From NCBI GenBank assembly GCA_025925615.1, contig JAICLN010000065.1, positions 1 through 13,355 on the forward strand: a stretch of 13,355 nucleotides of DNA. Direction: 5' to 3'. Shown piece after piece: positions 1,364 to 8,870 of the stretch (the stretch's first letter is position 1; the number at the start of each line of letters is the position of its first letter). The notes beneath the pieces are model-generated. The model had not been told where the DNA came from and ran no database searches. It worked only from the letters and a program-made list of their open reading frames with translations. Source of the DNA: Actinomycetospora sp. (GTDB lineage: Bacteria > Actinomycetota > Actinomycetes > Mycobacteriales > Pseudonocardiaceae). The position numbers and the translations under genes are program-made.

Positions 1364-1999
1364 TCAGAGCGCGCTCGTGAGCTCCGCGCCGGTCTTCTCG
1401 CGGACCTCGTCCTCGGTGACGCCGTCGGCGAGTTCGCGCAGCACCAGCCCGGCCTCGGTGACGTCGATGACGGCCAGGTCGGTGATGATCCGCTGCACGA
1501 CGCCCTGGCCGGTCAGCGGCAGCTCGCACTTCTCGACGATCTTGTGGGCGCCGTCCTTGGCGGTGTGCTCCATGAGCACGATGACGGTCTTGGCGCCGTG
1601 GACGAGGTCCATCGCGCCGCCCATGCCCTTGACCATCTTGCCGGGGATCATCCAGTTGGCGATGTCGCCGGTCTGTGAGACCTGCATCGCGCCGAGGATC
1701 GCGGTGTCGACCTTGCCGCCGCGGATCATCCCGAAGCTCAGCGCCGAGTCGAAGAACGAGGCGCCGGGCAGCGTCGTCACCGTCTCCTTCCCGGCGTTGA
1801 TCAGGTCCGGGTCGACGTCGGCGTCGTTCGGGTAGGGGCCGACGCCGAGCAGCCCGTTCTCGGAGTGCAGCACCATGCCCACGCCCTCGGGGACGTAGTT
1901 GGGCACCAGCGTCGGCAGTCCGATCCCGAGGTTGACGTACGAACCGTCCTGGAGCTCCTGGGCCGCGCGGGCGGCCATCTGCTCGCGAGTCAGACTCAT
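1364..1999 (-). CDS. pcaJ: 3-oxoadipate CoA-transferase, beta subunit
   Basis: This 211-residue protein is a family I CoA-transferase beta subunit. With PcaI it moves CoA from succinyl-CoA to 3-oxoadipate, giving 3-oxoadipyl-CoA in the cytoplasm. The signature SENGLLG is at residues 46-52, and Glu47 is the expected catalytic glutamate that forms the glutamyl-CoA thioester. NLGIGLPT near residues 23-30 and GGAMDLVHGAK are also family-typical. The length matches known beta subunits. Its ATG overlaps the pcaI stop by 4 nt (ATGA), indicating translational coupling. It is the last gene of the minus-strand catabolic cluster. The sequence alone does not separate PcaJ from acetoacetate/succinyl-CoA transferase (ScoB); the adjoining cat and pca genes favour 3-oxoadipate. 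Confidence 0.9.
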   Translation of the reverse strand: MSLTREQMAARAAQELQDGSYVNLGIGLPTLVPNYVPEGVGMVLHSENGLLGVGPYPNDADVDPDLINAGKETVTTLPGASFFDSALSFGMIRGGKVDTAILGAMQVSQTGDIANWMIPGKMVKGMGGAMDLVHGAKTVIVLMEHTAKDGAHKIVEKCELPLTGQGVVQRIITDLAVIDVTEAGLVLRELADGVTEDEVREKTGAELTSAL

Positions 2000-2817
2000 C
2001 CCTGTCCTCCAGTCAGACCCAGCATCGTCTCCTGGGTGGTGCGCTTCTCGATGTGCTTGCGGGTGACCTCGTCACCGGTCAGCTCGACCACGCGGTGGAC
2101 GAAGATGCCCGGCAGGTGCACCTCGTCGGGCTCGATCTCACCGGGCTCGACCAGTTCCTCGACCTCGGCGATCGCCAACCGGCCGGCCATCGCGCAGAGC
2201 GGGTTGAAGTTGCGCGCCGACTTGTTGAACACCAGGTTGCCGTGCCGGTCGCCCTTCGCGGCACGGACCAGGGCGACGTCGATGTCGAGCGCGGTCTCGA
2301 GCACGTGGGGCTTGCGCACCTTCGTGCCGTCGGGCTGGGTCACCTCGAACTCGCGGACCTCCTTGGCCGGGGAGGTCGCGACGACGGTGCCCTGGGCGTC
2401 GTAGCGCCACGGCAGCCCGCCGTCGGCGATCATCGTCCCGACCCCCGCCAGGGTGTAGAACGCCGGGATCCCGGTGCCCGCGGCGCGCAACCGCTCGGCC
2501 AGCGTGCCCTGTGGGGTCAGCTCGACCTCCACCTCGCCGCCGAGGTACTGGCGGGCGAACTCCTTGTTCTCCCCGATGTAGGACGCGGTGACCCGGGAGA
2601 TGCGGTGCTGCTCGAGCAGCACCCCCAGTCCCCAGCCGTCCACACCGCAGTTGTTCGAGGCGACCTTCAGGTCGCCCACGTCGGTCCGGTTCAGCGCGTC
2701 GATCAGCACGATCGGCACGCCCGAGAGCCCGAAGCCCCCGACGGCGAGCGAGGAGCCGGAGGGGATGCCCGCCACCGCCTCGTCGGCCGACGCCCACACC
2801 TTGTCGATGGCGGTCAT
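1996..2817 (-). CDS. pcaI: 3-oxoadipate CoA-transferase, alpha subunit
   Basis: The 273-residue protein is the alpha partner of PcaJ in the heteromeric CoA-transferase that activates 3-oxoadipate. The alpha-subunit signature is visible as SGSSLAVGGFGLSGVP at about residues 20-35, followed by the conserved SNNCGVDGWGLG segment. It is longer than the roughly 230 residues usual for Pseudomonas PcaI or SCOT alpha subunits; a stretch around residues 155-175 (EVTQPDGTKVRKP) may account for much of the difference. Both ends overlap neighbours by 4 nt: its start with the pcaD stop and its stop with the pcaJ start. The three genes are therefore very probably co-translated. As with PcaJ, a ketone-body transferase cannot be excluded from sequence alone. 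Confidence 0.9.
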   Translation of the reverse strand: MTAIDKVWASADEAVAGIPSGSSLAVGGFGLSGVPIVLIDALNRTDVGDLKVASNNCGVDGWGLGVLLEQHRISRVTASYIGENKEFARQYLGGEVEVELTPQGTLAERLRAAGTGIPAFYTLAGVGTMIADGGLPWRYDAQGTVVATSPAKEVREFEVTQPDGTKVRKPHVLETALDIDVALVRAAKGDRHGNLVFNKSARNFNPLCAMAGRLAIAEVEELVEPGEIEPDEVHLPGIFVHRVVELTGDEVTRKHIEKRTTQETMLGLTGGQG

Positions 2818-8148: not shown

Positions 8149-8870
8149 GCCGACACGGCCCGGAGGAACGCGTCGGTCAGCTCGGCGGGACGGGTGAAGT
8201 TGGCCTCGTGGCTGCCGGGGGCCTCGATCGCGGTCACGCCCAGCCGCTGCGGGAACCGGGTCCAGCCGTACTCGCCGGGCGGGAGGGCGATGTCGTCGAC
8301 GGACAGCACGTAGGCACTGGGCACGTCGAGCTCGGAGAACGGCTTCTGGTTCGGCGCCTCGGTGAACGTCCCCATCGGCTGCGGGGCGAGCAGCTCGAAC
8401 ACGGCGCGCTGCGCGTCCTCGCTCGCGTCCTGCATGAACGCGCCGGCCCACACCTCGAACGGCAGCGAGACGGTGTTCTGCTCCCCGCTCGCGGCGGCCT
8501 GCGCGGTGAACAGCCCCGCGTAGTCCGGCGGGACGGCGTCCATGAGCGACTCACCGTCCTCGGGGACGAAGGCGCTCCAGAACACGGTGCGCCGCAGCCG
8601 GCGGGCCACGCGCGGCGCTGTGCCGGAGACGACGTAGCCGCCCCAGCTGTGCCCGAGCAGCGTCACGTCGGTGAGGTCCTCGCGCTCGACGAGGTCGACG
8701 ACGGAGTCGACGCAGTCGGTGAGCGTGACCCCGCGCGGGTCGTCGCCCAGGCCGAGCCCCGGCAGCGTGGGCGTGAGCACCCGGTGCCCGGCGGCGCGCA
8801 GCCGCGTCGCGACCGGACGCCAGCTCCAGCCGCCGTGCCAGGCGCCGGTGACGAGGACGAACGTCTCCAC
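8145..8870 (-). CDS. Alpha/beta hydrolase, methyl-salicylate-esterase-like
   Basis: The 241-residue hydrolase resembles the plant SABP2/MES and bacterial EstC-like esterase group. It begins ETFVLVTGAWHGGWSW, with RLRAAGHRVLTPTLPGLG next. Ser75 sits in the elbow GHSWGG, a probable Asp at 192 or 193 in LSVDD, and His221 in APGSHEANFTRPAEL. The glycine of the usual VHGAWHGG motif is kept while its His is Thr (VTGAWHGG). GTG at 8870 has an excellent GGAGGG site 6 nt upstream and is the first gene of the minus-strand cluster. Its stop overlaps the monooxygenase start by 4 nt (GTGA), so hydrolysis of an ester or lactone giving the monooxygenase substrate is a reasonable inference. Methyl salicylate is the attractive candidate, not a proven one. 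Confidence 0.75.
   Translation of the reverse strand: METFVLVTGAWHGGWSWRPVATRLRAAGHRVLTPTLPGLGLGDDPRGVTLTDCVDSVVDLVEREDLTDVTLLGHSWGGYVVSGTAPRVARRLRRTVFWSAFVPEDGESLMDAVPPDYAGLFTAQAAASGEQNTVSLPFEVWAGAFMQDASEDAQRAVFELLAPQPMGTFTEAPNQKPFSELDVPSAYVLSVDDIALPPGEYGWTRFPQRLGVTAIEAPGSHEANFTRPAELTDAFLRAVSA

Follow-up and report, generated by a model that had tools for sequence, protein, structure and literature searches.

The question raised by the locus described here is whether nine adjoining genes for the breakdown of aromatic compounds serve salicylate alone or catechol in general, and how such a unit is controlled. The window, which means the whole stretch of DNA that was analysed, is a complete contig of 13,355 bases (C57) from the metagenome-assembled genome of a soil bacterium, which spans 3.52 Mb, is 60% complete and has Actinomycetospora as its nearest named kin. 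Nine open frames, all on the minus strand, run from position 8870 to position 1364. The unit is probably a general catechol hub. We are fairly confident that it serves Actinomycetospora as the main operon for ortho cleavage of catechol, with a predicted salicylate hydroxylase gene (fmo), with or without a hydrolase gene (hyd), in front and with pcaD, pcaI and pcaJ behind.

Gene content and order

The genes in order of reading, and the site predicted to control them, are as follows.

Predicted LysR operator, 8933..8966, minus strand: 96 bp ahead of the first gene, match to a cross-genus matrix
hyd, 8145..8870, minus strand: alpha/beta hydrolase, accessory, possible salicylate-ester esterase (PF12697, PF00561)
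fmo, 6904..8148, minus strand: predicted NahW-type salicylate 1-hydroxylase (PF01494)
catA, 6038..6907, minus strand: catechol 1,2-dioxygenase, best Protein Data Bank (PDB) match 3hgi
lysR, 5135..6034, minus strand: CatR-type regulator (PF00126, PF03466)
catB, 4037..5134, minus strand: muconate cycloisomerase of the 3dg3 type
catC, 3640..3921, minus strand: muconolactone isomerase (TIGR03221)
pcaD, 2814..3626, minus strand: 3-oxoadipate enol-lactonase (TIGR02427)
pcaI, 1996..2817, minus strand: 3-oxoadipate (or 3-oxoacid) coenzyme A (CoA)-transferase subunit A (TIGR02429)
pcaJ, 1364..1999, minus strand: 3-oxoadipate (or 3-oxoacid) CoA-transferase subunit B (TIGR02428)

The computed junctions from hyd to pcaJ are, in order, -4, -4, 3, 0, 115, 13, -4 and -4 nucleotides (nt). 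The sequence-only reading had described nine minus-strand genes in nearly biochemical order with four 4-nt overlaps and gaps of 0, 3, 13 and 115 nt. All of these frames are open, the families are as it named them, and the junctions agree to the base. The frame of fmo is open over 6904-8451 (515 codons) and its start was taken at 8148, just ahead of the flavin domain; the 4-nt overlap between hyd and fmo follows from that choice. Profile, domain and PDB searches support the gene identities and their order, with catA, catB and fmo below their NCBIfam cut-offs.

The activities of the unit, each predicted from sequence, would form one route. Hyd would release salicylate from an ester in part of the genus, which is the most speculative step, and Fmo would convert salicylate to catechol. 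CatA would open catechol to cis,cis-muconate, CatB would turn this into muconolactone, CatC would yield the enol-lactone, PcaD would yield 3-oxoadipate and PcaIJ would yield 3-oxoadipyl-CoA. The steps assigned to PcaD, PcaI and PcaJ would be those common to both branches of the beta-ketoadipate pathway. The CatR-type LysR encoded within the unit would drive all of it, most likely from the operator ahead of the first gene.

The gene set of the catechol branch is complete in the unit (catechol 1,2-dioxygenase, muconate cycloisomerase, muconolactone isomerase and enol-lactonase), and no thiolase gene lies within the nine genes. The proteins CatC, PcaD, PcaI and PcaJ score above the cut-offs of TIGR03221, TIGR02427, TIGR02429 and TIGR02428, respectively; the pass of CatC was obtained on a slightly longer frame (3640-3933), and the models for PcaI and PcaJ take in ScoA and ScoB as well.

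Conservation within Actinomycetospora

The genus loci comprise 13 named ones (L035-L042, L044-L046, L048 and L049), one from G267 and the window, which makes 15. The core fmo-catA-lysR-catB-catC-pcaD-pcaI-pcaJ is present in 15/15 loci as far as the contigs reach, where the stored contig of L039 stops after pcaD and that of L048 starts inside fmo. The 4-nt overlap of fmo and catA is also kept in all 15, window counted. The layout is beyond chance since the order recurs in 14 further loci of the genus.

The hydrolase gene is less constant. Among the 14 genus loci with a visible site it is full length in seven, a remnant in one (L036) and not found in six. The remnant in L036 lies just ahead of the fmo start near 9998, where an in-frame deletion has left 31 codons, and it is a direct sign that hyd is dispensable. 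Two Pseudonocardia loci have a related fmo, and in one of them (L047) hyd adjoins it.

Regulator and predicted operator

Relatives of lysR stand before catB in the common cat layout. A search for T-N11-A boxes (at least 6 of 7 paired positions) gave none at the operon head in 14/14 genus loci, so the operator was sought by cross-genus comparison instead. Outside the genus, the regions ahead of lysR in 32 distinct loci share a 34-bp motif, TTATCAATCAAGCGnAAATAAGTCTTTGTnTTTA, and a matrix was built from 31 of these 32 upstream regions with Actinomycetospora left out. When both strands of the window were scanned (26,644 positions), the best match scored 17.7 at 8933..8966 and the next scored 1.5. 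Neither 5000 base shuffles of the intergenic stretch nor 1000 column-permuted matrices gave a score as high as 17.7. A block at the operon head is conserved in 14/14 genus loci, and the operator site there ranks first in nine of the 14.

The predicted operator of lysR has likely shifted from its place ahead of lysR to the operon head, since the motif taken from lysR upstream regions outside the genus matches best at that head. The gap between catA and lysR, where the common layout places the operator, is left at -1 to 70 nt in the genus. An exact-pattern scan with the genus version of the site recovered the genus operon heads, missing several drifted ones, with extra single matches in L099 (before lysR) and L114.

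Observations that weigh against this reading

Several observations count against the unit being the main catechol operon under one operator. Three proteins miss their NCBIfam cut-offs: CatA reaches 329 of the 404.4 bits needed (TIGR02438), CatB reaches 173.8 of 334.95 bits (TIGR02534, muconate/chloromuconate cycloisomerase) and Fmo reaches 175.9 of 446.35 bits (TIGR03219). The best PDB match of Fmo is tropone 2-monooxygenase 8rqh (264.9 bits), and PcaIJ may be a transferase of the ScoAB type. Weaker intradiol dioxygenase genes (33-40% identity) are present in 12/13 Actinomycetospora genomes, and G655 has a second catA outside the operon (contig C25:16691-17548) that is 92% identical to that of the window. 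The operator ranks 2, 23, 2, 2 and 5 in L041, L044, L045, L046 and L049, and it scores 0 or less in these loci and in L042; in L041 the match sits about 15 bp away from the conserved block. The site is thus clear in the clade that bears hyd, except in L039 (0.1), and has drifted or become weak in the clade that lacks hyd. No promoter of the sigma-70 type turned up, in a test that is weak at this G+C content, and the 115-nt gap between catB and catC could hold a promoter.

Because the cut-offs were missed, the names catA, catB and fmo rest on other evidence. The best PDB match of CatA is catechol 1,2-dioxygenase 3hgi (277 bits), presumably from Rhodococcus opacus, and the alignment of the two keeps a Tyr, Tyr, His, His set that we take to be the iron ligands. 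The nearest solved relative of CatB is muconate cycloisomerase 3dg3, presumably from M. smegmatis; its 362 bits stand well ahead of the other MLE families, the runner-up having 174. The muconate cycloisomerase of the 3dg3 type lactonizes with an anti course, and the low score of CatB on TIGR02534 may be explained by its belonging to this type. The evidence for Fmo is given below.

Transcription of the unit

A single compact operon had been proposed for these genes, and one transcript is probable on the short gaps and the conserved order. The alternative that we take most seriously, although we consider it somewhat unlikely, has two transcripts: hyd/fmo-catA-lysR-catB would be read from the head operator, and catC-pcaD-pcaI-pcaJ would be read from an internal promoter that serves the protocatechuate branch too. 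The gaps of catB-catC and catC-pcaD are indeed the longest in most loci, a trunk held in common with pcaHG and pcaBC would have to be expressed when catechol is absent, and the genus pca and ben loci that were read show no head-type operator scoring above 9, save for a stray match of 10.6 in L187. However, the catB-catC gap, 115 nt in the window, ranges over 9-115 nt across the loci (9 nt in L049), and both gaps are short and poorly conserved. The window stretch showed neither a promoter-like nor a terminator-like site, again in a test that is weak at this G+C content.

Catechol hub or salicylate operon

The unit does hold the near-complete gene set from salicylate to 3-oxoadipyl-CoA that the sequence-only reading saw in it, but a unit for salicylate only is unlikely. 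The operon holds the sole high-identity catA in 12/13 Actinomycetospora genomes and the sole close pcaI and pcaJ in 13/13, and benA, above its cut-off in 5/13 genomes, lies elsewhere, either on a different contig or no less than 140 kb off. The sequence-only reading implied an operon dedicated to salicylate or its esters, with salicylate itself as inducer through a regulator like SalR or NahR. Such a unit would account for fmo being the first conserved gene, for hyd standing ahead of it in 7/14 loci and for the weak similarity of Hyd to the methyl salicylate esterase SABP2. We nevertheless judge it improbable: lysR and the operator match those of cat operons that have no fmo, nearly all of the genomes lack another high-identity catA, and hyd is lost or absent in 7/14 loci.

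A salicylate-specific regulator was considered and set aside on the same match of lysR and site to ordinary cat operons. The unit has its own regulator, as had been proposed, and both this lysR and its predicted operator are of the ordinary lysR-catBAC type. The same regulator and site serve operons without any salicylate gene, and a catechol intermediate is thus a likelier inducer than salicylate; the co-inducer is probably cis,cis-muconate.

Possible dependence of the protocatechuate branch

The genes pcaI (E 1e-10) and pcaJ (E 1e-20) each gave one match in 13/13 Actinomycetospora genomes, in every case inside this operon; G000, one of the 13, is only 60% complete. A pcaH gene is above its cut-off in all 13. 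A pcaB-like gene is found in 12 genomes just under its cut-off (322-334 of 355.75 bits), with a weaker pcaB match at a contig edge in G000, and pcaC directly follows pcaB in 12/12 of the genus pcaB regions. No pcaD was found at E 1e-7 in these 12 regions, of which six span 13-20 kb and six about 4 kb; weak PcaD-like matches occur in L173 (26%) and L172 (36%, partial). The single close pcaI and pcaJ, the presence of pcaH in all genomes and the pcaB-pcaC pair without an adjoining pcaD suggest a shared trunk. The protocatechuate branch likely, though not certainly, borrows pcaD and PcaIJ from this operon, and a distant second CoA transferase or PcaD may exist elsewhere in the genomes.

The lower beta-ketoadipate pathway may have been rewired onto one operator, with the site of the cat regulator now heading a unit of eight or nine genes that has taken in the shared trunk (pcaD, pcaIJ), and with the protocatechuate genes left without a trunk of their own. 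We hold this rewiring tentatively and put it slightly short of even, because a distant CoA transferase elsewhere is possible.

Outside the genus, pcaD lies within 9/14 of the pca regions that were read (L191, L195, L198, L200 and L201 are without it). In 6/14 (L192, L193, L194, L196, L197 and L202), a CoA transferase gene that is 28-29% identical to pcaJ lies near pcaH, and a transferase as distant as this could escape the pcaJ search at E 1e-20. A general linkage of pcaIJ with pcaHG outside the genus was also considered and does not hold for the close type, which matched at E 1e-40 in 26/28 genomes and lies within 5 kb of pcaH only in G261 and G202; in G222, pcaJ, catB and pcaH are spread over 21 kb.

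These transferases bear on a further alternative, in which pcaI and pcaJ encode a ScoAB (acetoacetate) CoA transferase that the unit has captured, while a separate, distant transferase elsewhere serves the protocatechuate branch. The nearest solved chains to PcaJ are succinyl-CoA:3-ketoacid CoA transferases, so that its 3-oxoadipate role rests on context, and the transferases near pcaH in the six outside regions could have been missed in the genus. Yet probing the pca, ben and operon loci read in the genus with the distant transferase brought up no gene other than the pcaJ of the operon, and the position after pcaD fits 3-oxoadipate. This alternative is unlikely, and a 3-oxoadipate transferase is the reading kept here.

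The predicted salicylate entry genes

In a tree of 56 rows, Fmo falls in a clade of 29 rows (support 100/100) that includes the second flavin adenine dinucleotide (FAD) monooxygenase of plasmid pLIB119, and TrlE, NicC and the NahG-type SalA protein of pLIB119 fall outside it. The gene neighbours of the pLIB119 monooxygenase are a transposase, nahR, salA, a ferredoxin-type gene, catechol 2,3-dioxygenase and semialdehyde dehydrogenase. The nahW locus of strain C70 is reported with the same gene order and is likened to that of AN10 (PMC5336314). The record of the pLIB119 protein reads only 'FAD-dependent monooxygenase', and the protein was taken as NahW because its gene order agrees with the nahW locus. 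Fmo is accordingly filed as NahW-type by kinship and not as a member of TIGR03219, whose cut-off it misses, and we predict it to be a NahW-type salicylate 1-hydroxylase. A homologue of fmo (49.7%, plasmid search) lies behind benABCD-catABC in Roseomonas mucosa.

A tropone monooxygenase, suggested by the top PDB match, was rejected on the position of TrlE outside the Fmo clade. It is very unlikely that Fmo acts on a tropolone-, hydroxynicotinate- or hydroxybenzoate-like substrate and that the unit is no salicylate pathway, as its best PDB matches (8rqh, 264.9 bits; NicC, 201.9 bits) and its best NCBIfam model (3-hydroxybenzoate 6-monooxygenase, below cut-off) might suggest, given that TrlE, NicC and SalA lie outside the clade with the nahW-locus protein, that TrlE has itself been placed near the salicylate hydroxylases (PMC11110157), and that the product must suit CatA, whose gene overlaps fmo by 4 nt.

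The hydrolase gene that was proposed as an entry for esters is present in the window; it is accessory, being found in 7/14 genus loci, and its substrate is putative. The best PDB match of Hyd is 6tj2, and SABP2 is among its matches (E 1.4e-11). The family is common in actinobacteria, and one relative (P0237) is labelled 'Salicylate esterase' by UniRef. It is plausible that Hyd acts on salicylate esters.

Related layouts outside the genus

A catB search at E 1e-60 was positive in 44/298 genomes of the order sample, two of which are Actinomycetospora, and in 17/394 genomes of the class sample, 10 of which the order sample had supplied too. Outside the genus, stretches of 8-20 kb with catB in them were read in 33 of 49 catB genomes, and matches were counted at E 1e-8 when they covered 35% or more of the query. 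An fmo lies near catB in 1/33 regions (L143), pcaI or pcaJ in 2/33 (L128 and L144) and pcaD in 2/33 (L116 and L128); in G222, pcaD-pcaI-pcaJ lie just beyond the catB stretch that was read. This neighbourhood comparison bears out the rarity claimed for the assembly. The sequence-only reading had also held that cat and pca modules are usually separate or divergently arranged; they are usually separate, but the cat genes of the order are not as a rule divergent from lysR, and lysR-catB-catA-catC in one direction is the common layout outside the genus.

The lysR-catB-catA-catC operons of the order (for example G239/L131 and G138/L135) share with the window the CatR-type lysR, the catB family, the operator motif and the position of lysR immediately ahead of catB. 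They differ in that fmo, pcaD and pcaIJ are absent, catA follows catB and the operator stands immediately before lysR. The nearest precedent is the lysR-catBAC-pcaD-pcaIJ cluster of G274 (L128), of the same family, where lysR-catB-catA-catC-pcaD-pcaI-pcaJ run in one direction like the cat and pcaD-pcaI-pcaJ genes of the window. It has neither fmo nor hyd, its cat genes are in catBAC order, and its pcaD, pcaI and pcaJ are 35, 40 and 49% identical to those of the window. An intermediate layout is found in another genus of the family (G247, L143), where hyd, fmo, lysR and the cat genes stand together as in the window. There, however, hyd is divergent from fmo, the operator lies in the gap between fmo and lysR, catB, catA and catC follow, and no pcaD or pcaIJ is present within the 20 kb read.

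In three genomes of another family (G292, G284 and G213; L124, L125 and L132), a second cat set, catA-catC-pcaD, is found at a distance of about 5 kb from an fmo homologue. The catA of this set is 55-58% identical to that of the window, closer than most catA of lysR-catBAC operons; pcaI follows in two of the three and no pcaJ is in view.

Among proteobacteria, catBCIJFD of Acinetobacter is a precedent for cat genes joined with IJ and D, and the sal esterase genes of Acinetobacter and the sal/mml genes of Pseudomonas reinekei place a salicylate hydroxylase beside esterase or ortho-cleavage genes. These systems have other gene orders and other regulators. The Pseudomonas sal operon has the NahW/NahG salicylate 1-hydroxylase, to whose NahW clade Fmo belongs, but there the hydroxylase feeds catechol 2,3-dioxygenase (meta cleavage) and the regulator is NahR (PMC5336314). 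For Rhodococcus, the units reported are catABC, pcaGHBCDF, pcaIJ-fadA and salA, with reactions like those of the window in separate units, and PcaL, PcaIJ and PcaF are listed with the protocatechuate cluster in R. opacus 1CP (PMC12728593, PMC13101518). No account of this operon was found in a literature search that mostly missed subscription journals.

Adjoining genes of the window

A metE-like gene (Meth_synt_2 type, 9058-10241, plus strand) is divergent from the operon head and adjoins it in several relatives. In the window it is in two frames (9079-9456 and 9414-10238), compared with the homologue of 390 amino acids in L041, which points to a frameshift or an assembly error. The plus-strand frames 10747-11403 and 1-567 are kept in L035 and/or L037 (tblastx about 88-91% over the matched stretches). 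A PhzF-like protein (PF02567; 11557-12738, plus strand), whose real start is probably further in, and a GNAT acetyltransferase (12743-13297, minus strand) are encoded near the operon in several relatives.

Biological meaning

The sequence-only reading had regarded the enzymes as well-known families and the assembly as the notable part, and this view holds: each enzyme is ordinary, and what is new is their assembly, the relocated operator and the probable capture of the trunk. The motif is usable for the operators of actinobacterial cat operons. The genus as a whole offers a natural example of an operon being rebuilt, where the fate of genes, regulator and operator can be traced at once, and a related genus shows an intermediate layout. 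If the rewiring is true, growth of Actinomycetospora on protocatechuate would depend on the catechol regulon. Much of the family has the opposite arrangement, with pcaD placed among pcaHGBC. The operon poses a sharp and testable question, namely whether one branch of a textbook pathway depends on the regulon of the other.

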